From positions 1 to 64,000 of the forward strand of contig JAACWS010000019.1 of the NCBI GenBank assembly GCA_009991955.1: DNA of 64,000 nt, in the 5' to 3' direction. The notes under the pieces are model-generated. The model worked only from the letters and a program-made list of their open reading frames with translations, was not told where the DNA came from and made no database searches. Made by a program: the position numbers and the translations under genes. Of the stretch, positions 14,408 to 58,176 are shown one piece after another. The stretch is from Spirochaetales bacterium. GTDB lineage: Bacteria > Spirochaetota > Spirochaetia > DSM-27196 > Salinispiraceae. How positions within the stretch are numbered: the stretch's first letter is position 1; each line of letters opens with the position of its first letter.

Positions 14408-15805
14408 CTAGGCCCGCCTTATCTTCCGCGGTATTTTGTAGGCGGCTATCTGGTGTTTTAGAACCTCTTGTACCCGCATTTCCTCGCTCTCAATATCGAC
14501 CGCTAAAGGTGTTTCCAAAAGTGCAACTATCGAATATCCTTCAATAATAACTCGGGCATCCCGGGCTACCGTGGCCGAGAGGACTGCAGACCGAACCTCC
14601 TCTAGGTCGACGATAACCCCATTCATTTTGTAGGTATTCTTGGTTTCCCAATCGAATACTAAGTGGTCTTGGTCGAAGTGCCCCAGGTCGCCGGTATGAA
14701 ACCACCCATCCCGGATTGCAAGAAAGGTTTCTTCGGGTCGGTTGTAGTATCCGCCGAACATCGACTCACTTTGTACGAGAATTTCTCCCCGTCCATGGTC
14801 ATCGGGGTTGGCAATTTTGACCTCTACTCCGTCACATACACGTCCAACGGTTCCGGCACGGGACTCTCCCCGGCTATTCCGCGCTATCGGGGTAAACTCC
14901 GTAAGGCCGTAGCCGTGTAGCACCTCAACTGAAAAGGCCTTAGAAAGTTCATCATACTCTTCGATTTCTAGCCGGCTTCCGCCGGAAACAAAGGTCAAGA
15001 GGCTCGAGAACTTCTGCCCCTCTTTTACCGACCGTAGCAGCAGACGATACACCTCGGGGACGGCGGTTACATGGTTAACGCCCAATGTTTCGAATGAAGA
15101 CAAAATAACCCGGGGATGGATTGTGGTCGCCAGTATGCCCGTAAGTCCGTACAACAAAGGGGTGAACAGGCAGCCGACAAGGGTAAAAATATGACTGAGT
15201 GGAAGGGGGTACAAGAGCGACTCCCCAGGTGTGGACTGCAATCCCGCCTGGAGCACTTTCGCACCGTGGAGATACTGTTTTTCGAGGGCGAGACTGCCGA
15301 CCAGAGTCCCTGTTCCCCGGTAAGTGCAGTTAATCGACACCCACTGGTCGGAAATACCCGAAGTCTTGGAAGTACTCGAAGTCGGATTCACAACCGTAAA
15401 ACGCCCCGTCCCTTCGCGAACGAGAAGTCCACGGCCGGAGGCAAACGGTGAAAGCATGGGTACAAACGAAGATTCTGCAATAACCGCCCCCGGACTAAGG
15501 TCCCGGAAAATAGTTGTGAGTTCTATGAACCGATACTCTTTTTTTGCGAAGACCGGAACCGCCCGAAGATAGATAAGGGCAAGAATTACCACTACAAAAT
15601 CGATAGAATTGGACAGAAAAAGCGCGACTACCGTATCCCTATCTATTCCTCCTTGCCGGAGAATAGTTGTCATTGATCGGATCCGGAACTGAAGATCTTC
15701 CGGTCCAACCGATACAATCTCACCCCGCGGTCCGAGCTCGGTCAGCACGGGATTGGTTCCCCACCGACCCAGACTCTCTTCTATGCGGCGGGTTAGTTCA
15801 GACAT
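14408..15805 (-). CDS. Acyl-AMP ligase of the ANL superfamily, C-terminally short
   Basis: A 465-residue adenylate-forming enzyme. ANL landmarks seen: PLPLSHIFTLVGCLFTPLLYG, VSGGSRLEIEEY, the A5 motif HGYGLTEFTP, A7 in WFHTGDLGHFD, and an A8-like YKMNGVIVDLEEVRSAV. The usual TSGTTGxPK phosphate loop reads TYRGTGTLVGS, and the protein ends at AAYKIPRKIRRA, just where the A10 lysine segment should follow. It therefore looks as if 10-20 residues are missing or fused. It could load the neighbouring ACP, but reduced adenylation activity is possible. The ATG at 15805 overlaps the preceding stop by 8 nt and has AAAGGT upstream. Confidence 0.85.
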   Translation of the reverse strand: MSELTRRIEESLGRWGTNPVLTELGPRGEIVSVGPEDLQFRIRSMTTILRQGGIDRDTVVALFLSNSIDFVVVILALIYLRAVPVFAKKEYRFIELTTIFRDLSPGAVIAESSFVPMLSPFASGRGLLVREGTGRFTVVNPTSSTSKTSGISDQWVSINCTYRGTGTLVGSLALEKQYLHGAKVLQAGLQSTPGESLLYPLPLSHIFTLVGCLFTPLLYGLTGILATTIHPRVILSSFETLGVNHVTAVPEVYRLLLRSVKEGQKFSSLLTFVSGGSRLEIEEYDELSKAFSVEVLHGYGLTEFTPIARNSRGESRAGTVGRVCDGVEVKIANPDDHGRGEILVQSESMFGGYYNRPEETFLAIRDGWFHTGDLGHFDQDHLVFDWETKNTYKMNGVIVDLEEVRSAVLSATVARDARVIIEGYSIVALLETPLAVDIESEEMRVQEVLKHQIAAYKIPRKIRRA

Positions 15806-18800
15806 ACCTTTGCCATACCGGGGGCGGATTTCCTGTTGCGGTGCCACTGGCGATATACGCCTGGGCAGGAGTTCCAAGGGAACGAGTCACTTGAATATCT
15901 TGGAAACCCGCATTCTTGAGGAGCAGATAGAGGTCTTCTTCGGAATAAAAGCGGAAGTATCCGTCTTCTTCGAGTTCTAGTAGTCGCGCCGCTTCGTTGA
16001 GCATCGATCGGGCAGCGGTTAACTGTCCATCTTGCCGTTCTGCGCCATTCAGGTGCTCGATATATTTGGTAAAAATCTTCGAAACGTCGCTGTCCGGTCG
16101 CATCGAAGACAGCACAATCCGACCACCAGACTTTAATCTGCTATGAAATTCTGCCAGCAGGTAATCGGGATTCAATATGTACGAGATGAAGAGACTCGCA
16201 ATTAGCCGGTCGAAAACCTCGGTATGTCCTTCCCCGTCGACAGAGACCGAGATCGGGGCACGTACTCCGACCGGTCCAAAGTTGAGTGTATGAAAGCTGA
16301 TTTCTTCCCACCGAACTTCGCCCCTGAGATATCGAAGGGCAGTGTGTATTTCTTGGGCAATTTCCGGGTTTGAAACGCCGTTTGGAACAGAACCTTCGCC
16401 GCTTTTTAACCATGAAGTCAATTGGGGGGTGGATTTCTGTTCCCAAGTGTCAATTACCCGGTTGGAGAGCCCCTCTATTCTTCCCTTGAGAAAAGTGAGA
16501 GGAACTTGAGGGTTGTCTAAAAAGTCTTTGAGGGGGACTAGGCGACTGGGTTCCAGATCTTGTACCCGGAATGAGAGATCCAGACCTCGAAGGTTAGGAT
16601 ACTCGGCGAGAGTTTCTCGACACTTTTTTTCGGTCCGAGCCAGGGCATCGGGAACCAAATCAACCGCCAGAACCGACGTTGGTATATCCACCGAACCTAT
16701 GGCCTTATGATCAGCCAGAGCAAGAAGGATTTCCCGGGTAAGTAGTCCCGTGCCACATCCCATATCCACAATCATTTGACCCGGACCCACATCGAGCAGT
16801 CGAATTTCGTCGTGTAAAAAGGACCGGAACTCGGTGAGTCGACCATAAAAGTCGTATCCTTCGCTCTCGGCTTTCTCACCTACTAGATAGGAGCGCCAGT
16901 AGGCAGAAACCTCATCGGCGTCGAGGGGTTTGTAGACCGCCTCTCGTTCTTCGGAAATTATTTGCAGTAAAACCGCCCGGGGAACGGTTATTGCCGGATT
17001 AACCGAACCTACTAACCCGGTGCAGTACTCGGCAATTATTCGAAAAGCTTCGGCCGCGTCCTGACTGCTGCGTAGATTGTGTCCGGCAGGGATCCTAATT
17101 AGCTCCCGGGAAGCGCCGCTATCAACTGACATTATGTCTTCGACCTCTTTTGGGTCCACCCAGTGATCGTATTCTCCAAGAATCCATAGGACCGGTATCT
17201 TTATTCGCGATAGATCAAACCGGGCGTCGGTCAAGAAGGCATATTTTTCATCTATGAGGTCTTGGGCTAGTTGATCCATATCCACGAAGTGCCCAAGCAT
17301 CCCCCGAACCCCATTTTTCAGACCCGCTTTTGTGTTGGCAATGACGTCGGTTCCAGCCAATACGTTCATAAGGGTAGTTCGGCCGGCCGGGACTCCCATG
17401 AGGCTTACCCAGGCATGGACGCGCTCTCTTTCTATGAGTAGAAGTTTGCGGGCATCGACCGAAGACATGCTCGTAGTAACAAGGATTACCGATGCCGGTT
17501 CGCCAGAGTAGTTCTTGTAGACGAAATCTAACACCGCTTGCATATCCTCAACCCCTTGGGAGGGTCGATAACCTAGCATTTCATAGCCCCGGGAAGGACT
17601 TGGATTCCGATTATAACTTTCCCCGGGTCGATTTATTCCGTCGAATCGCAAAACGATACAACCTTGTCCAATTCGGGCAAAATTGATGCAGAGAGCGGCG
17701 GCAAGAGGCGCAAGAGTTTCCTTTTTCTTTCCAAAGGCAGGAGGAATAATCACTATTACCGGAGATTTGGCATCGCCAACTCGGTTCTCTAATCCGACTA
17801 TTTGTCGCCCTTGTCGATCTAGAAAGGTAATCCGGCGAGTAGGAAAACTCGGCACGGGTTCACGGATCGGTAGCTGACCCGTAGCCTTTCGTTGTTCCCA
17901 CTCTTGGCCAGAAATAATGGTTTCTTTTATTTGCCCACGCCAGATCCCCGCCTCGACACCAACTTGTATTGTGGTTATTCCAATAGAGAAACTAATCTCA
18001 GAAATATGCCGGATTTGTCCAAAAGGGGGCAACTGGAACTCAGAATCCAATGAGTAAGTCACAGGGATACCGGTCTGAATCGGTAGAGAAGTCTGCGTAG
18101 AAATGGTAAATTCCGCAAGGAAACCACGCCAGCTCACATCGACCAGTGTACCTACCAGCCCAATGTTTTCCGAATCTTCCCCATAATAGAGGGTGACTTT
18201 TGTGTTTTTCGGTACCAGTTGGCGCCCAACAGAACGATTGTCGGTTTGATATATTTGTTTCGGCAAGGCTACGGTAAGTTCGGTCTTTGAGTGAGGTTGA
18301 GAATGGAATTCGAGAATCGTCGAGGAAAAATAATGAATGCTTCCGTCAAGGGTAAAACTGACAAACACCGAGTCATCGGCTTTGACAGTTACTAAACCAT
18401 CGACTACAAGACCAAACTTCGTACTATCGTCGGGTTTTTTCTCTGTCCGTATCGAACCATTGTATACTTCAGTTGTACCTTCGACCAAAATATAGACCGG
18501 GCTATTTCGTTGGGCCCTTAATAATCTGAAAGAGGCGGCTGCATCTAACCAATAACCACCATCGTCGGAACCTTTTATAGCTTGGCGTATCGAGGCTAAG
18601 GACTGGGACGCTACCATCTTTTCTATGTAGGCGGATATTCGCGCGCGATTCACCGCAGATACTTCCCTGAACCGAACACCGATACGACTTCGCCTGTGGG
18701 GGTCTTTCACACAGTAGGCTACGACCGAATCAAACCGAAGAGCCCTTTCATCACCGGGGAGGATGAATTCAACTACCAGGTCTGTACCTGAGGGAGTTTC

Positions 18801-19274
18801 CCCATTTGCTATAAGGAGTAAACCTTCGGGGGTCAAGTTCTCGATTGTAACATTAGTAAGGTACCGATCGGTTTTTGCCTCGATAGAGCAGTCCAAACGA
18901 GGAACACGGCGAGACTCCGCATCGTCCGCATTTTCGCTAATGTGGCGCTTTTTGGTTTCGTGAATATAGTTTTCTATTAGACGCAACTGCTGATCTGTAC
19001 TGTGCAGGAACTCAAAGGCATAAATGTGCTGTTTTGATCCGTCTTCGTTTGCGCCTCGTCGGGCAATCCGAACCGGTACCTTAATTTCCGAAGAAATTTC
19101 TGGTAACGAAAATCTGATTATTTCCACCCGTTCGAATGACTGGGGAATAGCAACCTTTACCTGTATTCCATTACGGCTCAGATCTATTGAGACCCCTTCT
19201 ACCGTAGTTCCCGCTCCATCAAACCAGACAACGTCTTCGTGCACAATTCGAGTGTGCCGACGTTTTTCGGACAT
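15798..19274 (-). CDS. Triple PilZ - LuxD-like acyl hydrolase - methyltransferase fusion
   Basis: A 1158-residue protein without signal peptide or TM segments. Three PilZ modules each keep the c-di-GMP motifs: RxxxR at 5-9 with DLSRNG at 31-36; RxxxR at 122-126 with NLTPEG at 146-151; RxxxR at 347-351 with DVSWRG at 379-384. The third is preceded by a YcgR-N-like domain (about 245-345). Residues 480-755 form an alpha/beta hydrolase resembling LuxD acyltransferase/thioesterase, with nucleophile elbow SMSS near 604, Asp near 703 (GEYDHW) and His near 732 (PAGHNL). Residues 800-1150 hold a class I SAM methyltransferase (DMGCGTG near 837). ATG at 19274 was preferred to an upstream TTG. It leads an overlapping operon. 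Confidence 0.85.
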   Translation of the reverse strand: MSEKRRHTRIVHEDVVWFDGAGTTVEGVSIDLSRNGIQVKVAIPQSFERVEIIRFSLPEISSEIKVPVRIARRGANEDGSKQHIYAFEFLHSTDQQLRLIENYIHETKKRHISENADDAESRRVPRLDCSIEAKTDRYLTNVTIENLTPEGLLLIANGETPSGTDLVVEFILPGDERALRFDSVVAYCVKDPHRRSRIGVRFREVSAVNRARISAYIEKMVASQSLASIRQAIKGSDDGGYWLDAAASFRLLRAQRNSPVYILVEGTTEVYNGSIRTEKKPDDSTKFGLVVDGLVTVKADDSVFVSFTLDGSIHYFSSTILEFHSQPHSKTELTVALPKQIYQTDNRSVGRQLVPKNTKVTLYYGEDSENIGLVGTLVDVSWRGFLAEFTISTQTSLPIQTGIPVTYSLDSEFQLPPFGQIRHISEISFSIGITTIQVGVEAGIWRGQIKETIISGQEWEQRKATGQLPIREPVPSFPTRRITFLDRQGRQIVGLENRVGDAKSPVIVIIPPAFGKKKETLAPLAAALCINFARIGQGCIVLRFDGINRPGESYNRNPSPSRGYEMLGYRPSQGVEDMQAVLDFVYKNYSGEPASVILVTTSMSSVDARKLLLIERERVHAWVSLMGVPAGRTTLMNVLAGTDVIANTKAGLKNGVRGMLGHFVDMDQLAQDLIDEKYAFLTDARFDLSRIKIPVLWILGEYDHWVDPKEVEDIMSVDSGASRELIRIPAGHNLRSSQDAAEAFRIIAEYCTGLVGSVNPAITVPRAVLLQIISEEREAVYKPLDADEVSAYWRSYLVGEKAESEGYDFYGRLTEFRSFLHDEIRLLDVGPGQMIVDMGCGTGLLTREILLALADHKAIGSVDIPTSVLAVDLVPDALARTEKKCRETLAEYPNLRGLDLSFRVQDLEPSRLVPLKDFLDNPQVPLTFLKGRIEGLSNRVIDTWEQKSTPQLTSWLKSGEGSVPNGVSNPEIAQEIHTALRYLRGEVRWEEISFHTLNFGPVGVRAPISVSVDGEGHTEVFDRLIASLFISYILNPDYLLAEFHSRLKSGGRIVLSSMRPDSDVSKIFTKYIEHLNGAERQDGQLTAARSMLNEAARLLELEEDGYFRFYSEEDLYLLLKNAGFQDIQVTRSLGTPAQAYIASGTATGNPPPVWQRYV

Positions 19275-19499
19275 AGTTTTCAGGAAAACTATACCAGAGT
19301 ATCTAGGGGGTAACAAGCTTTATGTTCCATGCCACGGTCCGGTATGAATAGGTGATAAGTTACATCGAGCACGAGAGCTTGGTGTGGTTCCTATATCTGG
19401 GTTTTTAGAACTGAAAACCCCTCGAGAACATATGAACCATCGTGGATGAAATAGTGGTAAGGGTAAAGAATCGCACCGGAGGCTTTTATTGGCTGAAGT

Positions 19500-20354: not shown

Positions 20355-21429
20355 CTCGATCTCCTAGAGCCTCATTGTCCCATACCAAAGAACGAATCAT
20401 GTGAATCGCTACCTCTTGGGCCTCAGCCGGAAGGGGAGCAAATCCAAGTTGTGAATTAAGCTTTTGACCTTCGGTTACAAGGTAGTAGAGAAATCGGACA
20501 AGCTCTATTGCTGTCTCTCGGTTGGGAATCGAGTTGTTACGGGCTAGGTTTTCGTAGACCAAGGCCCAGGAAAAGCCCGTAATCGGGTACCCGTCCGGGG
20601 CTGGAGTGTTCGTTAAGTCTACCCGGCCATCCCGGGGAATTGCCACTTGGGCCGAGGCGGTGGTTCCTTCCAGACTGGGGGTAATAATGACCCCTCGTTG
20701 ATTTATAATCTGGGCGTAGGAAAGGGAGTACAGCTGGGCGAAGGCCAGGCTGTTGTACCCCAGGGCTCCAGGGATCGCAGCAACCAGGGACGCAACTCCG
20801 TCATTCCCCTCCCCACTTCGACCCAGGGGCCACCTCACTCGGGTACCCTTCCCAACTCTGCTCGCCCATTCGGGACTCACCCGAGACAGAAACGACGTAA
20901 AGATGCTCGTCGTTCCCGAACCATCGCTCCGATAGATCAGCACTATCGGCAGATCGGGAAGTTCTACTCCCGGGTTCAGGGAGGCGATGGCCGGATCATT
21001 CCACCGAGAAATCTTCCCTAAAAAAAGATTCGCCGTAAGTTCAGAAGAAAAAATAAGACCCTCGCCGCTTGGGTCCAGGCTAGGAAGATTATAGGTAAGG
21101 GCTACGTCGCCGAGGGTAAGCGGAATGTTAAAACCGACTCCCTCGCTAAGGGGGGCTTCGGACACACCGAACATAAATCGTTGGTCCATAAAGCCCCGAA
21201 TTCCCGCTCCCGAGCCTATTACCGCATACTCCAAGCGTACTCGTCCATGAGTAAGAGATTCGTAACCCTGAGCCCAGGCCTGTACCAGGGGGGCAGGGAA
21301 GGTCGCACCACCACCTACCAAAGTAAGAGTCGCGCGAGAAAGTTCGATAGGTAGGAGTCCTCGTCGAACTACGACAAATGAAACGAATAGACCAATTACG
21401 AGAATAGCTACGAAAAGAAACTGTTTCAC
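20323..21429 (-). CDS. PstS-like phosphate-binding protein, membrane-anchored
   Basis: A 368-residue substrate-binding protein of the PstS type. After an N-terminal TM anchor or uncleaved signal (residues 5-25) come GGGATFPAPLVQAWAQGY, YAVIGSGAGIRGF, ISRWNDPAIASLNPGVELP, the phosphate-loop-like YRSDGSGTTSIFTSFLS, and PGALGYNSLAFA. No pstC, pstA or pstB lies nearby, so the protein either works with a transporter encoded elsewhere or senses or scavenges phosphate alone. The GTG at 21429 has GGGGAGA upstream and overlaps the MFS gene stop (GTGA), so the two are coupled. Its 3' end overlaps the convergent DMT gene. Confidence 0.88.
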   Translation of the reverse strand: MKQFLFVAILVIGLFVSFVVVRRGLLPIELSRATLTLVGGGATFPAPLVQAWAQGYESLTHGRVRLEYAVIGSGAGIRGFMDQRFMFGVSEAPLSEGVGFNIPLTLGDVALTYNLPSLDPSGEGLIFSSELTANLFLGKISRWNDPAIASLNPGVELPDLPIVLIYRSDGSGTTSIFTSFLSRVSPEWASRVGKGTRVRWPLGRSGEGNDGVASLVAAIPGALGYNSLAFAQLYSLSYAQIINQRGVIITPSLEGTTASAQVAIPRDGRVDLTNTPAPDGYPITGFSWALVYENLARNNSIPNRETAIELVRFLYYLVTEGQKLNSQLGFAPLPAEAQEVAIHMIRSLVWDNEALGDRVIGDIRAKGF

Positions 21430-22793
21430 CCGCGGCGTCTCCCCATTCCAAGGTAGAGGGTTCCCCCGGTAAGTACAAGACCGAAGCCGAAGATCCAGGC
21501 CGGTGCCAGGGTGGGGTCGCTGGGAACCAGCATCGATCCTAGAAAGTAAGCCCCAGGCACGAGCAGGGAGGTAAGGGTTTCCAAAACCCCATGGCGCCGC
21601 CCGCCGGTTTTGCCTGCCCCTTCTTGAACCTTTTCAATCGCCGATAGGTACATCCATCCCAGACCAAATCCGAAAAATCCAAGCATTATCACCCCAAGGC
21701 CCAGAGGTATACCAAAACCAAAAAGATCTAAGGCTCCCAGAATACCCAAGGAGAGGGTTGAACCCAAAGTAAGCCCGACTACCCCATTCGCCGACCCCTT
21801 CCATCCCCGGGCCCGAACCAGCCCGGCACCGATACTCCCCGCCAAAAGCAGGGCAAATACCCAGCCCACCGCCTGCTCGGGTAGGCCAAGACCTCCGGTA
21901 AGATATCCGGGCAGGAGGATTGTCAGTAGGGGCAATACAATCTGAAACAATAAGTAGAGGTTTACGGGGAACATTTTCAAGAATTCTAAGGGATTAGTCG
22001 ATTTCTGAGCCGGACCTGGGTCGACCAGGGGTTCGTTAACCCGCCGCCCAGCCCGAATGAACATCTCGCTGAGACCACTGGCAAAAAATCCTATTCCGGT
22101 GGCGACGAGCAGAGCCGAAAGCCCAAAGGCAACGAACAATATTCCACCCAGGGCATTACCCGCCAAGGTTGCGGTGTGCAGACTCGCGGTCCGAAGGCCT
22201 AGTACCCCAACCCGTTGGCCCCGGCGGTGAAAATCCCCTTCCAGACGAACACTTAAAAGGACCACTGCGGGGATAAAGAAGGCTTGGAGTCCACCATTGA
22301 TAAAGACCAGAGGCAAGAGTACTCCCAAGGAATGGTTCGAAAATCCCAGGCCAAAAGACACAAAAACCACCCCTCGAAGTAAATCGGTAAGAACAATAAG
22401 AAAGCGGGGACCTAGGCGATCGGCGACCCGACCGGCAAAAAGAGAAAACAGGGCCATTGGAAGGTAGGCGGTACCCTGAACGAGTCCCAGGAACTGGCTT
22501 GAATTCACCTGGGTACCTCCGTAGATGAGGAGGGCTACCAGAAAAACTCCGTTCCCAAAGGTCGATACGGCGTTTCCCAGAATTAAAAGCCAAGTGTCAA
22601 CTCCTGGTGAGGTTGATGGGAGGCGGTGCGAGTTCATGTCCGGTTGGGGTGCTCGGGCCACTGTCCCACCGTTATTCGGCGCTGCTATCGGGTTAGATGG
22701 GGGCCCACCTGCCAAAGTCGGAGTTACCTTACCACGCACAGCCCCTGTAAAACCCTCGGTTATTCCCTTGTCCCTATCCTCGGTCGGTGGCAT
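21426..22793 (-). CDS. MFS exporter
   Basis: A 455-residue major facilitator protein with about 12 TM helices after an unusual 60-residue polar, Pro- and Gly-rich N-terminal extension. FAGRVADRLGPRFLIVLTDLLRG between TM2 and TM3 is the MFS motif A region, of the type seen in EntS-like and MFS_3 exporters. The ATG at 22793 was chosen because AGGAG lies 5 nt upstream. The extension overlaps the promoter region of the divergent methyltransferase gene, 14 nt away, so the two starts are nearly back to back. It precedes and overlaps the PstS-like gene. Its position beside a biosynthetic cluster makes product export possible. Confidence 0.85.
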   Translation of the reverse strand: MPPTEDRDKGITEGFTGAVRGKVTPTLAGGPPSNPIAAPNNGGTVARAPQPDMNSHRLPSTSPGVDTWLLILGNAVSTFGNGVFLVALLIYGGTQVNSSQFLGLVQGTAYLPMALFSLFAGRVADRLGPRFLIVLTDLLRGVVFVSFGLGFSNHSLGVLLPLVFINGGLQAFFIPAVVLLSVRLEGDFHRRGQRVGVLGLRTASLHTATLAGNALGGILFVAFGLSALLVATGIGFFASGLSEMFIRAGRRVNEPLVDPGPAQKSTNPLEFLKMFPVNLYLLFQIVLPLLTILLPGYLTGGLGLPEQAVGWVFALLLAGSIGAGLVRARGWKGSANGVVGLTLGSTLSLGILGALDLFGFGIPLGLGVIMLGFFGFGLGWMYLSAIEKVQEGAGKTGGRRHGVLETLTSLLVPGAYFLGSMLVPSDPTLAPAWIFGFGLVLTGGTLYLGMGRRRG

Positions 22794-22807
22794 ATTACTC
22801 CTCATCT

Positions 22808-23761
22808 ATGAAAGCTCCCCAAGATTCGGTCAGTACGTATTATAACAAAAATACCCGCCGATTCATCCGCCAAGGCGAGGGCGGCGGTGCCCTGGCCATT
22901 CACCGGGGAATTTGGGCCCCAGGAATTCAATCCCCTGAACAGGCCGCAAACTGGGTTCCCCAGGCCATGTTTGACCGCCTGTCGACGTCGGCTTTGCCGG
23001 CCCCCACAATTTTGGACCTAGGGTGCGGTGTCGGGGGCACCCTCCAATTCCTGGCTCGAAAGTTCGGCGCCCTGACGGGCAACAAAGTATCGGACGGTTC
23101 CGCTGGAGCCGCCAGTGGTTCGACGGTTCCAGCCCACTCTGCTCGAATATTGAAGTTCTGGGGTGTTACTATTTCGACTGCCCAGGTCGATTTAGGAAGA
23201 ACCTTCCTTCAGCAACAAGGGCTTGGTTCGACAATTACCCTCCTCCACGGCGACTACACCCAAGAATCAACCTTCGAACCCCTTCCACCTATTGGCGCGG
23301 TGCTTGCCCTGGAAAGTTTTCTTCATAGCCCGGACTTACAAAAGACTTTCCAGTTGGCCGCCGGCGCCTTGGCCCCTGGGGGAATCTGTCTGGTTTGTGA
23401 CGATATGCTTTCTCTCGAGCCCGAATTCCTTGGTCCAACAGACCACGCCCACCTGCAACGATTTATATCCCAGTGGCACGGTTATGGCCTTACGACCCAC
23501 CAGAGAATGCTCGACCTCGGGGCACAGGTGGGCTTGGAGCTGGTCTCGGACCAGGACTTAACCCCCTTTCTACGGCTTTTTCGACCTCGGGACCGGTTTG
23601 CCGCGGCGGTTTTGCCCCTGCTTAGAGGTTTACGATTCTTCTCTGGTCACAAGGAATCGCCTGCCTGGGTTCAAAACCTCGATGGAGGAACCTCGCTTCA
23701 GCGGCTCCTGTACCAAAGAACTCTGAACTACCGACTATTGGTTTGGCGTAAGCGAGCGTAA
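22808..23761 (+). CDS. Class I SAM-dependent methyltransferase
   Basis: A 317-residue methyltransferase. Motif I is ILDLGCGVGGTLQFLARKFG (about residues 65-85), followed by an insert rich in Gly, Ser and Ala, a post-I strand (KFWGVTISTAQVDLG), motif II/III region VLALESFLHSPD and a GGICLVCDDML strand. The N-terminal YYNKNTRRFIRQGEGGGALAIHRGIW resembles small-molecule and isoprenoid-ring methyltransferases rather than RNA or protein ones. The ATG at 22808 has no ribosome binding site; a GTG seven codons upstream is possible. The 3' end overlaps the convergent CDP-alcohol transferase gene by 34 nt. Context suggests it acts on the product of the 23728-29284 cluster. Confidence 0.85.
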   Translation: MKAPQDSVSTYYNKNTRRFIRQGEGGGALAIHRGIWAPGIQSPEQAANWVPQAMFDRLSTSALPAPTILDLGCGVGGTLQFLARKFGALTGNKVSDGSAGAASGSTVPAHSARILKFWGVTISTAQVDLGRTFLQQQGLGSTITLLHGDYTQESTFEPLPPIGAVLALESFLHSPDLQKTFQLAAGALAPGGICLVCDDMLSLEPEFLGPTDHAHLQRFISQWHGYGLTTHQRMLDLGAQVGLELVSDQDLTPFLRLFRPRDRFAAAVLPLLRGLRFFSGHKESPAWVQNLDGGTSLQRLLYQRTLNYRLLVWRKRA

Positions 23762-25236
23762 ATATCACCACTCCGACCCCGAGTAGTAGGTCCGGAGATA
23801 AATTCAACTACCGTGGCCTCATCGACCCAACTTGGAAACACAAATTTCATCGTCTCGACCATCGACAAGTTAAACTCGTATTCCCCGAGGCGCCGAAGTT
23901 GGGTCAGGCTCTCTAATGCCGATTCCAAGGCCATGGGCAGAAACTCTATACTGAGGGCGGGAACCGGAAAAGAAAGGCCCGCAAGCACCTGGGGTTCGAA
24001 TCCTTCTACGTCGATTTTTACGAAGTCTGGCATTCCATAGGTTTTAATGAGAGTATCGAGGGTACTCACCTTTACGGGCACTTCTTTCTGCCAAGCAATT
24101 CCCTCAAAGGCTTTCTTAGTCTGAACCTGATCTACCCATTCCTGGGATAGGGTCGTTAAGGTAGGATGTTCTTCGCTTATGAGTAGATTCATCTGACCTA
24201 CTTCGGGTCCTAATCCCCAGGGCAAAATGGTTACCAGGGGATCTTCGCCGAACCAATTCTCCAAGACCCGAGCCAGGCCGGGCTGGGGTTCTACCCCGAT
24301 GCTCCGTACCCCCATGGCCGACCACCCACGAATTCGATTTCCTACATGGGCACCTACGTCTATAGCCAAGGATCCAGGTTGTACGAACTGTCTGTACATT
24401 CGACGAATACGCCTCTGCCTTCCGGGGATTCCCTGGTACACCACCATTGACTTGGCTATTGCCCTCCGATAGGCCTTAGAACCCAGAGATTGAAACTCCT
24501 TTATTCGTAAGATCCCTTCGAAACCGAAGGAGATTCCTAAACCAGTCACCATCCCAATCCCTACCCAGTCCAACACCCTCGGTGGAATTGTCTCTGGAAA
24601 GAGGCCCCCGATCCACAGGGCAACTATTCCGATCTGCACCAACGCGGCGATCGTTTTTGCAAACCACCGGAACTTAAGGTTCGGGGCCAATCGCCAGGGG
24701 GGCAGCAAAAAAATCACCCCAAAAACATACCGAAACAACCCAACCGCAGCAGTTGCGCCACCACCTATTCCTGGCATATGCCAATATATCCATCCTCCAA
24801 ATATCAGAAACAAGAGGCTGTCGCTTTCCATATCCAGCCAGCCCCCAAATCGTTCTTGTCGCCTTTGCAGTTCTCCACCTTGTTCCCCGGACCCGGAAAA
24901 TCGTCGGGCCAAGAACCCATCTACCCCATCAAAGACAAAGGCACTCATTCCCAGAAGGAGAACAAACCAATTTTCTTGACCAATTCCAACTCGGGCCAGG
25001 GCGACTGCCCCCAGTCCAAAAATGAGGCGCGTGAGGGTCGCAATATTCGCCGGCCTTCGAAAAATCATCGGCCAGGTAAGCTTCCACCCCCGCCGAGCCA
25101 GGTCTAGGCCCCACCCAAACACCAGAAGAGTCGGGACGAGCACAGGAAAAAAGTACCCGGGAAGCAAAACAAAAATGAGAGCCACGAGGGCCATGGTCGG
25201 AAGCCATCTTAGATGGAGGGGATGAAAAAGGTTCAC
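23728..25236 (-). CDS. CDP-alcohol phosphatidyltransferase fused to FkbM-type methyltransferase
   Basis: A 502-residue fusion. The N-terminal half (1-250) has several TM helices and the CDP-alcohol phosphotransferase signature: DGVDGFLARR near residue 103, then GGWLDMESD near 131. The gap between the AR and the G-x3-D-x3-D part is longer than the usual 8 residues because of a Gln/Arg/Glu-rich insert. The C-terminal half (about 280-490) is an FkbM methyltransferase (SLAIDVGAHVGNRI, SIGVEPQPG, DFVKIDVEGFEPQVLAGL). The enzyme should move a phospho-alcohol from a CDP-activated donor at the membrane and methylate a hydroxyl on a sugar or lipid. The GTG at 25236 has GGAGG upstream and overlaps the GT gene stop. 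Confidence 0.85.
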   Translation of the reverse strand: MNLFHPLHLRWLPTMALVALIFVLLPGYFFPVLVPTLLVFGWGLDLARRGWKLTWPMIFRRPANIATLTRLIFGLGAVALARVGIGQENWFVLLLGMSAFVFDGVDGFLARRFSGSGEQGGELQRRQERFGGWLDMESDSLLFLIFGGWIYWHMPGIGGGATAAVGLFRYVFGVIFLLPPWRLAPNLKFRWFAKTIAALVQIGIVALWIGGLFPETIPPRVLDWVGIGMVTGLGISFGFEGILRIKEFQSLGSKAYRRAIAKSMVVYQGIPGRQRRIRRMYRQFVQPGSLAIDVGAHVGNRIRGWSAMGVRSIGVEPQPGLARVLENWFGEDPLVTILPWGLGPEVGQMNLLISEEHPTLTTLSQEWVDQVQTKKAFEGIAWQKEVPVKVSTLDTLIKTYGMPDFVKIDVEGFEPQVLAGLSFPVPALSIEFLPMALESALESLTQLRRLGEYEFNLSMVETMKFVFPSWVDEATVVEFISGPTTRGRSGDIYARLRQTNSR

Positions 25237-26354
25237 GTCATTCCTCCGAAACTAGACTGGAGCACCAGTGACACGACAAAATTGAGTCGCCGACGCCGGC
25301 CCTCCCAGCTGAGTAGGGTTTGTAATTCGGGTCGGGGTTCAGGCCGGAGTCCGGATTGTTCAATTACCGGTTCAAGGGCCTCTAGAATCCCTCGGGACAG
25401 GGCCAATACCCGGGTAGAATCACTCGTGTCCTCATCTCCGGTCACCAGTATCCCACTTCGTCGGCCTCGCCAACTAGGTTCATCTTCTACCTCTGCCCTC
25501 AAAGCTTGCCCCAAGGCAAGGGCTTCGCTCACCCCTCCCCGATCGAGGGCCACCACCCCACAGCCTGCCGCGGCTGCCTCGTAGACCGCCATAGAAAAGG
25601 TTTCAGCCAGGCTGGGCTGAATAAGTACATCGATTGTGTGGAGAAAGTCTGGAACTTCCTCGGAGGGAAGGGTGCCCGGAGTTTCAAACTTGCTTCCGAG
25701 CTTTTTGTAGATTGTGTGTTCTAGTTCTCGATTTCCCGGTCCCGCAGCTATCCAAGACCAGGATGGCAATTCCAACAAAGCCAAAGCTTCGGCGGCAAGA
25801 TTATGTCCTTTTCCTTCCGATACCCGTCCAAGGCTGGCAAATCGGTACTCTTCCAACTTTTCGGGAAGGGTTCGACGACGAGGTTTTAGAAGCTCCGGAC
25901 CGTGGGTATCCCACCCGGGGTATAGAACAATAAGAGGCAGGATCTCGGGAAAAAGGTTTCGGGGAAGCCCAAACTTTGATTCGGTTTCCAAATCCTCCTC
26001 GACTAGGTAGGTCGGTCGCCACCCTTTCAGTTCTTGGGTGAATTTCCGAGCTATCCACAGGGAGGGGAGAATTACTAGATTTGTTTTGCCAAGGGACTCA
26101 AAGAGGGGGCCGGTATCCGGCGGAAGTCCATGGAGAATGATTCCCCAAGGTTGGTTGGCAGACACCTGGGGTAAAGTCGCCAAATACTCGGGACTGTACC
26201 AGAATAGGCTATCGAAAAGGACGAGGTCCTCGGGTCCCAGAGTAACGTCCGAAGAACCCAAGAGCCCCAAACGATCGTTGTAGAGAAATCCCCCCGAAAT
26301 CCCGCCGTACGCTTCCCGGGAGCCCGGTGGCTCGAGGATAACTATTCTACCCAA
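25233..26354 (-). CDS. GT4-family glycosyltransferase
   Basis: A 373-residue GT-B glycosyltransferase. The C-terminal domain has FASLGRVSEGKGHNLAAEAL, WIAAGPGNREL, and the donor-binding E-x7-E pattern in PSLAETFSMAVYEAAAAGCGVVALDRGG (about residues 240-270). The N-terminal domain is shorter and less conserved; ILHGLPPDTG (about residues 73-82) lies where the acceptor domain strands run. The start appears to be TTG at 26354, overlapping the PTPS stop by 8 nt; no other start fits. Its place between a CDP-alcohol transferase fusion and a PTPS-like gene suggests it glycosylates a cluster intermediate. The sugar donor is not predictable. Confidence 0.88.
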   Translation of the reverse strand: MGRIVILEPPGSREAYGGISGGFLYNDRLGLLGSSDVTLGPEDLVLFDSLFWYSPEYLATLPQVSANQPWGIILHGLPPDTGPLFESLGKTNLVILPSLWIARKFTQELKGWRPTYLVEEDLETESKFGLPRNLFPEILPLIVLYPGWDTHGPELLKPRRRTLPEKLEEYRFASLGRVSEGKGHNLAAEALALLELPSWSWIAAGPGNRELEHTIYKKLGSKFETPGTLPSEEVPDFLHTIDVLIQPSLAETFSMAVYEAAAAGCGVVALDRGGVSEALALGQALRAEVEDEPSWRGRRSGILVTGDEDTSDSTRVLALSRGILEALEPVIEQSGLRPEPRPELQTLLSWEGRRRRLNFVVSLVLQSSFGGMT

Positions 26355-26764: not shown

Positions 26765-28531
26765 TTACTGTCCGGGGTCTATAACAACCTGCAGCACCGG
26801 CTCGGTTGGGTTATCTAGTAGAGTATACGCCTCGGCGGCTTTATCAAGTCCAAATCGATGGGTAATAAACCGAGAGGGTCTCAAACGTCCCAATAAATCT
26901 ACCACCTGACCCATCCTCCTTGCCTTAGTCCACCGAGGGCCTAAGGGCCGGCCCACGTTACTCACCTGGCTACTCACCAAGGACAGCCGTCGTCGATGAA
27001 AGGCCTGGCCCAGGTTCAGGGACACGGGTTTGTCGGCGTACCACGAAGCCTCGACGATAGTCGACTCAAAGGGAGCGTGGTCGATAAGGGTCTGTAAACC
27101 CCGGAAGTTTCCGCTGCAATGAATCGCCTTGTCCCATCCTCGGCCATCGGTAACCTCGGTTAAACGTTCGGCGAGATCTGGGTCGAGGGGATTGTACTCT
27201 TGGGCTCCCAAATCGTGACTTACTTTTCTCCGATAGGGGTCTGGATCCAGGGCCAGAACCTTCACCCCGTGGGACAGCAGTATTTGGGTGACCAAAAGGC
27301 CTACCACCCCCTGGCCAGCAACAGCAACCACATCTCCTAAGCGAGCATGGGTGTCGTGAACAATCGACACGGCGGTTTCGGTAGAAGCAAGAAAGATGCC
27401 GTCCTCCCAGGATAGATCTCCCAGGTCGATGAGCCCGTCTTCGGGGTAGGCAAACCAGTCTTGATGGAGGGCAAAGCCAAAAACTCGACGACCCCGGGGA
27501 TCTTCCCCAACATTAATGTACCCATAGGTTAGGGGATACTCTTGGGGCTGTAGACTCGCTATGGCCTCACCCGAGAAGTCCTGGCATTCTCCCCGATATA
27601 CCGCCATTTCGGTGCCTGCGCTTATACCCTGGAGCCGAGATCGGACCAACACCTCGCCGGCTTTGGGACGGAGATCGATAGTCCGAACCGCCGCTTTCCG
27701 AGGAGCGGTAAATACGAGTTGCCGAGCCTTCACCAACTCGGCAGTCGGGCCCAACGAAGGTCTTGTGAAGAGCAGTTTCAGATCCGGCGCCGAACTATTT
27801 TCGCATATCTCGGCCAAGCCAGGCATCGGGATGGTGCTTTGGCCCGTCGAAGAATACTCGAGGACTAGATCGCTCCCACCCTGGGCAAGGGCGGTAAGAT
27901 TCCATTTTCGCGACAACTTCGGGTCCACACTTGTTCCCCGGGGCTCGGCGGTGGGTGCCTGGGTTATGATGAGGGAGTCTTCAATTCCTTCAGACAGTGC
28001 CGAGGACAGAACCGCCCCTCCCCCTTCAATAAAGAGGCTCTGCAACCCATGGTCTGCTAGCCAGGCAAGAACTTCGTCCCAAGGTAGAGGACTCGCCGAA
28101 AGTGGAACAAGGGTAGCACCTTTGCCTTCGAGCACCTGCTTTTTTGAAAGAAGTTCGGGACCTAACTCCCGGGAGTAATAAAAAAGAATGACCCGATCCT
28201 TGTCTCCGAGTTCGGAAAATATGCGGGCGTTTTCGGGTGTTCGAAGCCGGGAATCTAGGACGAGTCGCCATGGCTGTCCCAAGGGTCTACCGTTCCATTG
28301 CCGGCCAGTCGCCGAATAATCACCTACCCTCTGACTAAGCTGGGGGTCATCGGAAAGTATTGTGTCGATACCAACTAAGACCCCATCGTAGAGTCCCCTT
28401 AGAACGTGGGTGAGAAATAGAGTCGCGTCGCAAGATATTGCCAAGGGGCTCGTGGCCTCCTTGGAGGATCGACCCAGAACGCCATTGAGGGTCTGGGCGT
28501 ACGATACCAAAACCGAAACAGAATTCATCAT
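26765..28531 (-). CDS. RibD-type reductase fused to MDR dehydrogenase
   Basis: A 588-residue fusion. Residues 1-230 are a RibD C-terminal/DHFR-like reductase domain (SYAQTLNGVLG, LRGLYDGVLVGIDTILSDDPQLSQR, RLVLDSRLRTP, LFIEGGGAVLSSAL) without the RibD deaminase. Residues about 255-588 are a medium-chain dehydrogenase (GEVLVRSRLQGISAGTEMAVYRGE, VAVAGQGVVGLLVTQILLSHGVKVLALDPDPYRR). The catalytic zinc Cys of ordinary alcohol dehydrogenases is replaced (SAGTE), as in BchC-like relatives. The protein could reduce a ribosylaminopyrimidine or pterin and oxidise or reduce a side chain. The gene is divergent from a GTP cyclohydrolase II gene, 57 nt away. TACCAT lies 6 nt before the ATG. Confidence 0.87.
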   Translation of the reverse strand: MMNSVSVLVSYAQTLNGVLGRSSKEATSPLAISCDATLFLTHVLRGLYDGVLVGIDTILSDDPQLSQRVGDYSATGRQWNGRPLGQPWRLVLDSRLRTPENARIFSELGDKDRVILFYYSRELGPELLSKKQVLEGKGATLVPLSASPLPWDEVLAWLADHGLQSLFIEGGGAVLSSALSEGIEDSLIITQAPTAEPRGTSVDPKLSRKWNLTALAQGGSDLVLEYSSTGQSTIPMPGLAEICENSSAPDLKLLFTRPSLGPTAELVKARQLVFTAPRKAAVRTIDLRPKAGEVLVRSRLQGISAGTEMAVYRGECQDFSGEAIASLQPQEYPLTYGYINVGEDPRGRRVFGFALHQDWFAYPEDGLIDLGDLSWEDGIFLASTETAVSIVHDTHARLGDVVAVAGQGVVGLLVTQILLSHGVKVLALDPDPYRRKVSHDLGAQEYNPLDPDLAERLTEVTDGRGWDKAIHCSGNFRGLQTLIDHAPFESTIVEASWYADKPVSLNLGQAFHRRRLSLVSSQVSNVGRPLGPRWTKARRMGQVVDLLGRLRPSRFITHRFGLDKAAEAYTLLDNPTEPVLQVVIDPGQ

Positions 28532-28588: not shown

Positions 28589-29284
28589 ATGAAGGATCCA
28601 ATCACCCTCCCGACCCTCGAGTCCTTACCCAAAATTGAGCCCCGATTCCCCGAGGATCCCAAGTATTTCCGCGACTATACCACATCATCGGGCAAAATTT
28701 TTCGGATTTCTATGATTTCTGATGCGCTCTTGCCCACTCGCTTTGGTCAGTTCAGCATTATTGGGTTCCTCGATACCCAAGGGGGACGGGAACACACGGC
28801 CATAATTAGGGGAGATATCCGTGGGGCCGAAGATGTTCCCTTGCGAATTCACAGCGAATGCCACACGGGAGACATTTTTGGTAGCCTTCGTTGCGATTGT
28901 AGAGATCAGTTAGAAGCTGCCTTAACCTATATAGGCGAACTTGATCGGGGGGCAGTATTGTACCTGCGACAAGAGGGTCGGGGTATCGGCCTCATGGCCA
29001 AAATCCAAGCCTACCGACTCCAGGACCATGGACGCGATACGATTCAGGCCAACGAGGAGCTAGGTTTACCGGCCGAAGCCCGAGAATACGGCGAAGCGGT
29101 TGCAATGATGGAGCTCTTAGGTATTCGTTCGGTCGCCCTTATGACTAATAACCCGGCAAAAATGGATGGTTTATCGAATTTAGGATTTCCAATTTCTCGT
29201 CGGATTCCCATCATTATAGAACCAAATGTCCACAACGCCCGGTACCTGGGTACCAAGCGACTTTCAATGGGTCACCTGATCTAA
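28589..29284 (+). CDS. ribA: GTP cyclohydrolase II (RibA-type), stand-alone
   Basis: A 231-residue GTP cyclohydrolase II without the RibB domain. The zinc cysteines are in HSECHTGDIFGSLRCDC, followed by LYLRQEGRGIGLMAKIQAYRLQDHGRDTIQANEELG and LMTNNPAKMDGL. The Tyr in AYRLQ appears to match the catalytic Tyr of E. coli RibA, so the normal triaminopyrimidine product is possible. About 35 extra residues precede the domain core. No other riboflavin gene is near. Instead it faces the RibD-MDR gene, so it probably supplies a GTP-derived pyrimidine to a specialised pathway, although it may also be the only RibA of the cell. Transcript likely leaderless. Confidence 0.9.
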   Translation: MKDPITLPTLESLPKIEPRFPEDPKYFRDYTTSSGKIFRISMISDALLPTRFGQFSIIGFLDTQGGREHTAIIRGDIRGAEDVPLRIHSECHTGDIFGSLRCDCRDQLEAALTYIGELDRGAVLYLRQEGRGIGLMAKIQAYRLQDHGRDTIQANEELGLPAEAREYGEAVAMMELLGIRSVALMTNNPAKMDGLSNLGFPISRRIPIIIEPNVHNARYLGTKRLSMGHLI

Positions 29285-31123: not shown

Positions 31124-31489
31124 ATGAAAAAAATTGCGTTGTTATTAGCCCTCATTTTAGTCGGGGCCCTCGCTTTTGGCCAAGCTATTAACCTGGGAAA
31201 CTTCCCCTTGGGGAGCTATGTCGACCAGAACTACGATGCTGTATGGGAGTTTACCAGCAGCAATATTCGCATACTGTCGTTAGGTGGCGAGGTGCTCTTT
31301 GACTTTGGCCAGAATACGGTTCGAGATTTTCGAGTTGGTCTAGAAGGAACGAGCCCAATGATTACCTTCTCCTGCGACGAGAGCCAACGTTCCTATACAT
31401 TTGTAAAACCACTGACCAGTCAGAACGTAAACATGCAGTTCCAAGCTCCTTGGAATTCGAACTACCAGGTTACTCTCGTTCGACGGTAG
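31124..31489 (+). CDS. Small exported protein of unknown function
   Basis: A 121-residue protein with a clear signal peptide (MKKIALLLALILVGALAFGQA, cleavage after about residue 19-21) and a mature part of about 100 residues rich in beta-type, Asn- and aromatic-containing segments (NFPLGSYVDQNYDAVWEF, ILSLGGEVLFDF). I do not recognise a family. The ATG at 31124 was chosen over an upstream TTG because GGAGG lies 5 nt before it. It follows the Cof gene in the same direction and its last 20 nt overlap the convergent LTA-synthase-like gene. A periplasmic or surface role is all that can be inferred. Confidence 0.75.
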   Translation: MKKIALLLALILVGALAFGQAINLGNFPLGSYVDQNYDAVWEFTSSNIRILSLGGEVLFDFGQNTVRDFRVGLEGTSPMITFSCDESQRSYTFVKPLTSQNVNMQFQAPWNSNYQVTLVRR

Positions 31490-33104
31490 GCTCTTGAGGG
31501 TAGACCGAGTCCAGAAGATCGGTTAAAAAACTCGAAAAATCTTCCATACCCCGGTGGGGTTCCGGTTCATCGCCCGGGACCATCCGGGGTTGTAATCCCC
31601 ATTCTTCTGCATACTTCTGTACATCTGGTTCCCGGGACAAAATATGAAATGGCACCGAGTAAGTCGATTCTCTTTCGGATATGGGAATTCGAGGTTGATG
31701 ATCTCCTACAATAATTACCAGGCTTTCGGGATCGACGTAACGCTCTATATACCCTCGAATGGTAGTTAACTCGTAGTCCATACTGTAAATGTACCCTTCA
31801 GGAAACTCACCACCCCACAGCCAATTATTGCGAAATTGCCGAAGTTTTCCTTCCTGCCGGTAGACCGAACCATCACCCAGGTTCCAGTCGGGTAAATACT
31901 CTGGAAGAGTCTCGTAGGGTACGTGGGAGTTAGCAAGAATATACATGGCCATTTGGGGCTGATTTTGGGTGATTGTTGCCTCTCCCAGGGCTATTCCCGC
32001 TTTTGAAAGGGCAAATTGGTCGGACATGCGGCCGAAAGTAATGAATGGACCCCGGTACTCAAAATCCTTTTCGAGCATGTACCGGTCAAAATCATACACA
32101 GAAACCCACTCGGGAGTAGAAAACTGGGTGCCGGGGGCGGCCAAAAGACGGTAGTAACCCCGATCGCCCAGGTCGTTGGACAGGTTCCGGGCCCCCGATT
32201 GGCTATACTGGTCGTAGGCTTCTTGGTTTCGCAAACGAACTCCGGCCAAGAGAGTTCCATCGGCCAACCAACTACGCCCCCCAAAGGCCGGCGAAGACAG
32301 AAATCCACTGGCCCCCGTCCAACCCTGAGAAAAGAGGTCGTCTTCAAAGGCCCCATAAATAGGTGCCATAAGTTGGTGGTAGTCGTCCCGGGAAAAGAGG
32401 GTGTGGCCGTAGCTTTCAACCACAAAGAGATGAATGTCCGGCAAGGCTTTTGCTCGGGGAACCTCGACTTCTTCGACCTCCACGACTACGGCGTCGGTAG
32501 GCGGGGGAAGATCGACAACCTCTAGGGCCGGGGCAGGCGCCAGGGAACGGACAAAAAGGATTGCAGGACTGTCTTGGGGAAGAAACAGATACTGACCTAA
32601 AGCGCTCAAAATCAGCCCGGAAACGAGGATCCATCGAACCGGACCGGCTATTTCGTGTTTCCAAGAAAGTAGCCAAAGAAGCAAGAAACCAATCCCCAAA
32701 ACCCCTACGACCACTACCAAAAAGGTGGCGACCGAGACGATCGCTCCCGGACCACCCGAACCTTCCAGGAGCATATTCACCATCCCGGGCAAAAGACCGA
32801 GGTCCTGGGTGAGAACCACCGATTCCCGGTAGAAGAAGCGATAGAACCACTCCCCCCAATTAAAAGCAAACCCCAGACCCAGCACCAGCGCGAGGATCCC
32901 AGAGAGCAGAACCGAGACCCGACCTACCCGGGCTTGTGTCCACTTGTCCCCGGAAAACCCGACGAGTACCGCCAGGACCACAAGAACCTCGGGTACCGGG
33001 ACCATTACGAGCCAGGAACCAGCCCAGCTAAAGGGCAGGGTACGAAACCACCCGGTGAGAAGGGAGACTATTCCGATGCGAAAGAGAAAAAGAATTGTAA
33101 ACAC
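31470..33104 (-). CDS. LTA-synthase-like membrane phosphotransferase/sulfatase-fold protein
   Basis: A 544-residue protein with four to five N-terminal TM helices (about 1-180), a Pro/Val/Glu linker and an extracytoplasmic alkaline-phosphatase-fold domain. Metal and nucleophile positions are suggested by LFVVESYGH (about 228), AFGGRSWLADGTLLAGV (about 270-290) and IIVGDHQPRI (near 460). This plan is shared by LtaS, phosphoglycerol transferase (MdoB) and phosphoethanolamine transferases, which modify envelope glycans or lipids. It is not a CxPxR sulfatase and so is not an obvious FGE substrate. The start is GTG at 33104, with AGGAG directly adjacent to it. Its 3' end overlaps the small exported protein gene by 20 nt. 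Confidence 0.82.
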   Translation of the reverse strand: MFTILFLFRIGIVSLLTGWFRTLPFSWAGSWLVMVPVPEVLVVLAVLVGFSGDKWTQARVGRVSVLLSGILALVLGLGFAFNWGEWFYRFFYRESVVLTQDLGLLPGMVNMLLEGSGGPGAIVSVATFLVVVVGVLGIGFLLLWLLSWKHEIAGPVRWILVSGLILSALGQYLFLPQDSPAILFVRSLAPAPALEVVDLPPPTDAVVVEVEEVEVPRAKALPDIHLFVVESYGHTLFSRDDYHQLMAPIYGAFEDDLFSQGWTGASGFLSSPAFGGRSWLADGTLLAGVRLRNQEAYDQYSQSGARNLSNDLGDRGYYRLLAAPGTQFSTPEWVSVYDFDRYMLEKDFEYRGPFITFGRMSDQFALSKAGIALGEATITQNQPQMAMYILANSHVPYETLPEYLPDWNLGDGSVYRQEGKLRQFRNNWLWGGEFPEGYIYSMDYELTTIRGYIERYVDPESLVIIVGDHQPRIPISERESTYSVPFHILSREPDVQKYAEEWGLQPRMVPGDEPEPHRGMEDFSSFLTDLLDSVYPQEPTVERE

Positions 33105-57490: not shown

Positions 57491-58176
57491 GTATTTTCCG
57501 TGAGAAGCTACCAGCTTTTGTACCTCGAACCCCCCAAGCCGCACTCCTAGGCCTTAAAAGTGGAGTCGTAAGCCCTGAACACTTCATAGCGAAACGGCTG
57601 AGTCTGATGCCCCTCAACTATCAGCCCTACGATATACAAGAAGTCGAAAGGGTTTTAGCTCACCGAAATTTGGATGAGGAAACGGTGCTTTTGTTGGTAG
57701 ATATCTTGCGAGATATTCTTCAAGACCCCGACCGAGAAATTGCCCAAGTTGCCGCCGAAAGCCTTACCTCCTTAGAAAATCGCTACGTTCAAAGGATTCA
57801 AGGATTTAAAGAAATACTCGAGTACGAAGACGATGAGCTCGACCAGGTGAAACTCATGCGTGGACTCGCTGAGGATCTTCGAATTCTTGCCCTCATGTAT
57901 CGACATCAACGTATTCTTAGCCGCTTTTATTTTAAAGAAGCCTTCGTGTACAGTAACGAACTTTTTTCGACCCCTTCCCTCTTGCCACACCTGAGCGAAC
58001 AGGATGCGATCGCCCATATCGTCCTACTACTCGACCTGGGCATCCCCGGCCAGGCCAGGGCAGAAATAGAAAAGACCCAGCTCCAAGAGCTTTGCCAAGC
58101 CTCGACCCTCGAAAATCTTCGAAACAGAATCTACTTTGCCCAAGGACACTTTCGAAAGGTGCGGTTTCATGAGTAA
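57487..58176 (+). CDS. PelE-like TPR/helical protein
   Basis: A 229-residue, all-helical cytosolic protein (VERVLAHRNLDEETVLLLVDILRDIL, AQVAAESLTSLENRYVQRIQGFKEIL, AIAHIVLLLDLGIPGQARAEIEKTQL). It occupies the pelE position between pelD and pelF and has the PelE-type TPR character, but it lacks the two N-terminal TM helices of the Pseudomonas protein. PelE bridges PelD and PelF in the synthase complex, which a soluble version could still do. Assignment rests on gene order as much as on sequence. The ATG overlaps the pelD stop, and its own stop overlaps pelF by 8 nt. Confidence 0.65.
   Translation: MSIFREKLPAFVPRTPQAALLGLKSGVVSPEHFIAKRLSLMPLNYQPYDIQEVERVLAHRNLDEETVLLLVDILRDILQDPDREIAQVAAESLTSLENRYVQRIQGFKEILEYEDDELDQVKLMRGLAEDLRILALMYRHQRILSRFYFKEAFVYSNELFSTPSLLPHLSEQDAIAHIVLLLDLGIPGQARAEIEKTQLQELCQASTLENLRNRIYFAQGHFRKVRFHE

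Follow-up and report, generated by a model that had tools for sequence, protein, structure and literature searches.

A CDP-alcohol phosphatidyltransferase–FkbM methyltransferase fusion of Spirochaetota and its place in a recurrent cluster of flavin-precursor and envelope genes

A 64,000-nucleotide stretch of DNA from a Spirochaetales bacterium (contig JAACWS010000019.1, assembly GCA_009991955.1; hereafter the window) encodes, at 23728–25236 on the minus strand, a 502-residue protein in which a CDP-alcohol phosphatidyltransferase (CDP-AP) is joined to an FkbM methyltransferase. The same fusion is found in other Spirochaetota with its catalytic signature intact, and its gene belongs to a cluster that recurs in several phyla and that includes GTP cyclohydrolase II (RibA), a RibD_C reductase and a PTPS-fold protein. 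The fusion alone is a modest novelty; the interest lies in its membership of a widespread, uncharacterised cluster of flavin-precursor and lipid genes. We tentatively propose, with a confidence that stops a little short of even, that the protein is a bifunctional membrane enzyme whose CDP-AP half couples a glycosylated pyrimidine or pterin polyol to phosphatidate and whose FkbM half O-methylates it.

The reading frame begins with GTG and is open across all 502 codons. A GGAGG ribosome site lies 5′ of the start, and the start codon overlaps the stop codon of a GT4-type glycosyltransferase gene (25233–26354, minus strand) in the sequence GTGA; the two genes lie in one operon-like run, as the initial annotation implied. 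Pfam places CDP-OH_P_transf (PF01066) at residues 63–208 (24613–25050, minus strand), with 22.8 bits against a cut-off of 22, and Methyltransf_21 (PF05050) at residues 293–423 (23968–24360, minus strand), with 36.9 bits against 22.7; the NCBIfam model fkbM_fam (TIGR01444) scores 67.9 bits against 37.7. With the domains above their cut-offs in one open frame, the fused architecture is real, as had been reported. The PgsA equivalog TIGR00560 (cut-off 109.1) was not listed for the protein at E up to 0.1, and the protein fell below the cut-off of every functional NCBIfam CDP-AP family listed. CDP-APs carry four Asp, two Gly and an Ala-Arg pair in the order DxxDGxxAR...GxxxDxxxD, and this signature, also noted as complete at the outset, is present at residues 103–139 (D103-x2-D106-G107-x2-A110-R111 ... 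G131-x3-D135-x3-D139). The FkbM half contains the S-adenosylmethionine (SAM)-site and KIDVEG motifs. As anticipated, the fusion would hold the methyltransferase at the membrane, on the cytoplasmic side by analogy with the topology of the family, and O-methylation of a head group by this half is plausible.

The FkbM half has a strong homologue (E ≤ 1e-25) in 26 of 61 related genomes, fused in 11, stand-alone in 14 and cut by contig ends in one (G032). Named contigs of Spirochaetota supply two more that are fused (L060 and L061), bringing the distinct fused homologues to 13, all of them from relatives of the window or other Spirochaetota; L082, L094, L117 and L121, which seem to repeat sequences from the related genomes, were left out of this count. 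All 13 retain the catalytic Asp/Gly/Ala/Arg residues. The initial annotation had cautioned that a sequencing error, with a stop codon missing near codon 265, might have joined two genes, and the assembly is in 90 contigs; apart from these two points nothing speaks for a sequencing or assembly error, and we give it practically no chance. It is refuted by the recurrence of the fusion, since 13 distinct sequences, drawn from separate assemblies that include the single-contig genome G003, share this junction, and an alignment of 11 fused sequences is unbroken across it. Outside the fused set the CDP-AP and FkbM domains are encoded by separate genes, often neighbours. In a phylum-wide sample of 392 genomes, which is poor in members of the window's order, full-length matches were limited to the window's own genome (G000) and G003, so fusion is not the rule across the phylum. 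Beyond Spirochaetota, no fusion was found among the best 80 of at least 443 relatives in genome_contigs, nor among 10 plasmid records, one of which, covered to more than 80%, holds two adjacent genes. As to a viral origin, one scan of viral_contigs gave no relative. Four changes are needed on a tree of FkbM sequences (99 rows, 12 of them fused) and two on one of CDP-APs (56 rows, of which 13 are fused, with three outgroup CDP-APs on long branches); the truncated L053 is absent from the former and seven duplicate loci were dropped from both. On these trees the fusion may have had a single origin.

Structure prediction of the transferase with its insert had been suggested as a check, and AlphaFold2 gave a confident model of the fusion (42 rows; mean pLDDT 87.6, pTM 0.84) in which the six-helix CDP-AP fold was matched. 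Residues 60–244 align by VIA-align with PgsA bound to CDP-diacylglycerol (7drk_B) with a Z-score of 11.4, modest for a helical bundle, and a root-mean-square deviation (rmsd) of 3.0 over 166 residues. Residues 273–495 have a Rossmann methyltransferase fold and align by the same method with FkbM 2py6 (Z 12.4, rmsd 2.7, 162 aligned, 21% identity). The best 50 Foldseek matches of the model were methyltransferases only, and the CDP-AP match comes from VIA-align. When the sequence of the fusion was itself compared with the PDB, nothing convincing emerged, but profiles did give matches, and the best PDB relative of a profile of the fused proteins was PgsA (7drj, E 4.2e-8). Arg169 and Lys194, invariant in a ten-row alignment, align with an Arg and a Lys of PgsA that we take to form the acceptor phosphate pocket. 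These residues and the signature bear on the idea that FkbM provides the sole activity and that an inactive CDP-AP part anchors it in the membrane: the low Pfam CDP-AP score and the variable loop length of the fused proteins would agree with it, but the catalytic set preserved throughout the fused proteins and the invariant Arg169 and Lys194 would not, and we consider it very unlikely.

The loop in question spans residues 112–130 (24847–24903, minus strand), where 19 residues separate the AR and G of the signature. A spacing of eight is typical of CDP-APs, not defining, and Pfam membership is independent of it. All 40 separate homologues have eight residues here, whereas the four nearest fused relatives have 11–13 and the other eight fused proteins 7–8, so that the lengths met in fused proteins are 7, 8, 11, 12, 13 or 19. 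The insert of about 10 residues that had been claimed thus exists and amounts to 11; as a unique feature it does not stand, given the range of 7–19 among fused relatives. These spacings mark the insert as a lineage-specific extension. In the predicted structure, helices 89–119 and 122–153 are lengthened into a hairpin with its turn at residues 120–121, which by family topology should lie on the cytosolic side. For PSS, whose structure is solved, the loop that joins helices 2 and 3 on the cytoplasmic side is described as helping to hold CDP (PMC8633023).

The fused gene is the last of four close or overlapping minus-strand genes, preceded by those for a RibD_C reductase fused to an MDR (BchC/threonine-dehydrogenase-like) dehydrogenase (26765–28531), a PTPS-fold protein (PF01242; 26347–26754) and the GT4-type enzyme. 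The gene for RibA (28589–29284, plus strand) is divergent upstream of this run, and that for a class I SAM methyltransferase (22787–23761, plus strand), itself a recurrent cluster part, converges downstream, tail-to-tail with the fusion. An MFS transporter is encoded at 21426–22805 (minus strand), and MFS genes adjoin cluster genes also in L037, L142 and L143. A membrane protein at 31470–33104 (minus strand) is above the cut-off of no Pfam or NCBIfam family and has an LtaS/EptA-type phosphotransferase fold (Z 22.3, rmsd 3.1 and 257 aligned against LtaP, 4uop_A); its homologue lies directly 3′ of the fused gene in L060, L061 and L037. Outside 22–34 kb, the cluster profiles had one match only in the window, a GT4 gene at 58136–59575.

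To describe the cluster more widely, 80 FkbM loci, picked by sequence alone as the best 80 of at least 443 relatives, were searched with profiles built from the genes around the fusion in the window and from relatives of those genes. The parts that recur with CDP-AP and FkbM are GTP cyclohydrolase II, the RibD_C reductase, the MDR dehydrogenase, PTPS, GT4, a methyltransferase, an LtaS-fold transferase and a flippase. Of these loci, 37 are flanked by at least 8 kb on either side; among them, CDP-AP, the MDR dehydrogenase, PTPS and GT4 were each found in 24, the LtaS-like gene in 22, the second methyltransferase and a PF03706-type flippase in 17 each, and RibD_C and RibA in 16 each; at least four of seven core parts were present in 23 of the 37. 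Actinomycetota, Pseudomonadota, Chloroflexota, Acidobacteriota, Gemmatimonadota, Bacteroidota and Spirochaetota are represented. Annotated plasmids of Peteryoungia, Thiodictyon, Streptomyces fungicidicus and Palleronia carry the cluster set, CDP-AP and FkbM being separate neighbouring genes on the Peteryoungia plasmid, and haloarchaeal plasmids carry partial sets, one of which includes GTP cyclohydrolase IIa. Further fusions among the cluster parts point the same way as cluster membership: RibD_C and the MDR dehydrogenase are fused in the window, L037 and L053 (separate in most other loci), and single frames match the profiles of RibA and RibD_C (L103:10774-12153) or of GT4 and the methyltransferase (L141:9927-11915). 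Across the 61 related genomes, FkbM and the cluster-type dehydrogenase occur together in 23, one without the other in 3 and 3, and neither in 32 (Fisher p 1.4e-10; by genus 10/1/2/18, p 1.5e-5), at thresholds (E 1e-25 and 1e-50) set after the lists had been seen and with phylogeny handled by collapsing to genus only. A Glu two residues past the third motif Asp is found in 13 of 13 fused proteins and 37 of 40 separate cluster CDP-APs, and in neither of the genome's two other motif-bearing CDP-APs; by these counts it appears to mark one CDP-AP subfamily.

The window's genome has RibA, RibD_C and PTPS in one copy each, all in the cluster; its RibD_C protein has no deaminase domain by Pfam, and the genome, 93% complete, gave no match to lumazine synthase (RibH, PF00885) or riboflavin synthase (PF00677), and neither did G035 and G060. 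Each of these two enzymes was found in 6 of the 10 genomes searched, and in control genomes in 14 of 14 (lumazine synthase) and 11 of 14 (riboflavin synthase). Because their only copies are in the cluster and the later riboflavin enzymes are undetectable, RibA and RibD_C of the cluster probably feed a product other than riboflavin. The single-contig genome G003 has a riboflavin operon near 552–556 kb besides its cluster copies. These observations also bear on the alternative that riboflavin or a deazaflavin (F420-type) cofactor is what the cluster provides, CDP-AP and FkbM being passengers or export helpers. RibA scores above its cut-off, and a published account of PTPS-IV ties that group to F420 synthesis, citing unpublished work (PMC5041015). 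Yet the missing RibH and riboflavin synthase in three genomes, the separate operon in G003 and a window PTPS that lacks the FGPAQ signature are at odds with such a role; no FO or F420 genes were noticed among the scanned neighbours, although no search was aimed at them. We regard this alternative as improbable.

A simpler possibility is that the CDP-AP half makes an ordinary phospholipid while FkbM methylates a sugar placed by GT4, the RibA, RibD_C and PTPS neighbours having a separate job. CDP-AP, GT4 and FkbM are all common envelope enzymes, and PgsA is the best PDB match of the fused-protein profile. However, the genome encodes its own PgsA elsewhere (128.8 bits against the TIGR00560 cut-off of 109.1) together with two further CDP-APs, so the fusion is not the housekeeping enzyme, and several phyla share the grouping of CDP-AP, FkbM, PTPS, the dehydrogenase, RibD_C and RibA. 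Moreover, genomes of family f6, which belongs to the window's order, have a stand-alone FkbM gene with RibA and RibD_C (L044-L047), and the dehydrogenase and PTPS on another contig (L140 and L141, in G008 and G014); an FkbM gene in this reduced company speaks for methylation of the pathway product rather than of any lipid. We consider the ordinary phospholipid unlikely, if the strongest of the competing explanations.

Returning to the bifunctional enzyme, we infer its substrate, the order of steps, the site of methylation and the product from the parts of the cluster. The initial annotation took the transferred head group, or the sugar made by the adjacent GT, to be methylated; this reading is partly supported and is redirected here, as the conserved company of RibA, RibD_C, PTPS and the MDR dehydrogenase makes a GTP-derived pyrimidine or pterin polyol the likely substrate, in place of an ordinary head group or sugar. 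RibA would convert GTP to 2,5-diamino-6-ribosylamino-pyrimidinone 5′-phosphate, a first step supported by its score above the curated cut-off (TIGR00505), and RibD_C would reduce the ribose to ribityl, with no deaminase, lumazine synthase or riboflavin synthase step to follow. The PTPS-fold protein, the MDR dehydrogenase, GT4 and the second methyltransferase would then remodel, glycosylate and methylate the intermediate. The six-helix CDP-AP half would join CDP-diacylglycerol to this polyol, X (probably as a polyol phosphate, as with PgsA), to give a phosphatidyl-X lipid, and the C-terminal, cytosolic FkbM half would O-methylate X, or a sugar on X, at the membrane. The finished head group would be flipped by the MFS protein or the PF03706 flippase, and the LtaS-fold transferase may move it to an outside acceptor. 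Outside the membrane, enzymes with the LtaS fold transfer phospho-head groups that they take from lipids; a phosphatidyl-X donor would suit such a reaction.

Several observations weigh against this scheme. Eight of the 37 fully flanked FkbM loci have none of the seven core parts and 13 lack CDP-AP, and the f6 genomes have no CDP-AP or GT4 gene at their FkbM-RibA-RibD_C locus. The cluster is split over contigs in several members of the order; in G020 and G035, for instance, the fused gene is on one contig and RibA, RibD_C, the dehydrogenase, PTPS and GT4 are on another. In the window itself the LtaS-like gene lies 2.2 kb past RibA with other genes intervening. The CDP-AP Pfam score is just 0.8 bits above its cut-off, the loop spacing deviates from eight, and the modest PgsA Z-score and the late-set co-occurrence thresholds count on the same side. 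Finally, the absence of riboflavin genes could reflect assembly gaps, at a completeness of 93% for G000, 91% for G035 and 81% for G060.

A broader and more doubtful proposal is that the clusters make an envelope lipid or glycopolymer of a class that is widespread and undescribed; its head group would come from a riboflavin precursor (phosphoribityl-aminopyrimidine or pterin) through dedicated RibA and RibD_C, PTPS, glycosylation, methylation and CDP-AP, with LtaS-type transfer in many lineages; Spirochaetota would have fused the coupling and methylation steps. We know of no pathway shared by flavin-precursor and phospholipid enzymes. If the proposal is true, a GTP-derived ring serves as a head group in the membrane, or as a substituent of the envelope, in actinobacteria, proteobacteria, Chloroflexi, acidobacteria and spirochaetes, and, from the partial clusters, in haloarchaea too. 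Many genes annotated as 'RibA', 'RibD' or '6-carboxytetrahydropterin synthase' would, it is suggested, not signify riboflavin or queuosine. The fusion offers a handle, as it names two steps that touch the same intermediate and makes the question addressable with one purified protein. A cytochrome b561 gene (PF01292) is present in some proteobacterial clusters (L054:2770-3297, L077:16026-16580; profile matches in 7 of 80 loci), and given this the lipid-bound ring might be a membrane redox or radical-quenching group. Elsewhere in the window, 15798–19316 is a 1172-residue frame with, by eye, PilZ-like, hydrolase-like and methyltransferase-like regions.

No description of the fusion or of the cluster product was found in the open-licence PMC literature, and part of the gene context is in print. 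Most cluster PTPS proteins have HGAT at the HGH site, presumably a zinc-binding motif, and the window PTPS has HSH; these replacements suggest a changed PTPS chemistry. FGPAQ is present in 39 of 45 cluster PTPS proteins; the window PTPS lacks it, reading FGQEELAPHSHPY, and so is not filed as PTPS-IV, with RibA and RibD_C adjoining it as in the PTPS-IV neighbourhood. In the AGeNNT report, the section on PTPS-IV notes a group with PF00925 and PF01872 neighbours and the FGPAQ motif (PMC5445326); our cluster likewise has PTPS beside PF00925 and PF01872 with FGPAQ in most members, but CDP-AP, FkbM, LtaS-like and flippase parts are unnamed in that section. The assignment of PTPS-IV to F420 synthesis relies on unpublished work (PMC5041015). 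For pseudoiodinine, a RibA/RibD pair is described as diverted from riboflavin by analogy with toxoflavin (PMC9911603): GTP cyclohydrolase II and RibD homologues are diverted and methylation follows, as proposed here, but the products are soluble small molecules, and CDP-AP, GT4, PTPS and LtaS-like parts go unmentioned in the pertinent portion of that paper. The BrbF formamidase, of the creatininase family, acts between GTP and 2,5-diamino-6-ribosylamino-pyrimidinone phosphate and serves riboflavin (PMC9478397); creatininase-family genes are present in 10 of 80 cluster loci, but none was found in the window's cluster. The 31470–33104 protein shares the fold of LtaS, LtaP and EptA and differs in matching no family above cut-off. 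With PgsA and other class I CDP-APs (PF01066) the fusion shares the fold, the order of the signature and the aligned Arg and Lys, and it departs from them in its C-terminal FkbM domain, the Glu after the third Asp and a longer loop between transmembrane helices 2 and 3. Like other FkbM methyltransferases (TIGR01444, PF05050; 2py6), it is above both cut-offs and has their fold and their SAM-site and KIDVEG motifs; unlike them, it is anchored in the membrane, and its subfamily travels with RibA, RibD_C and PTPS.

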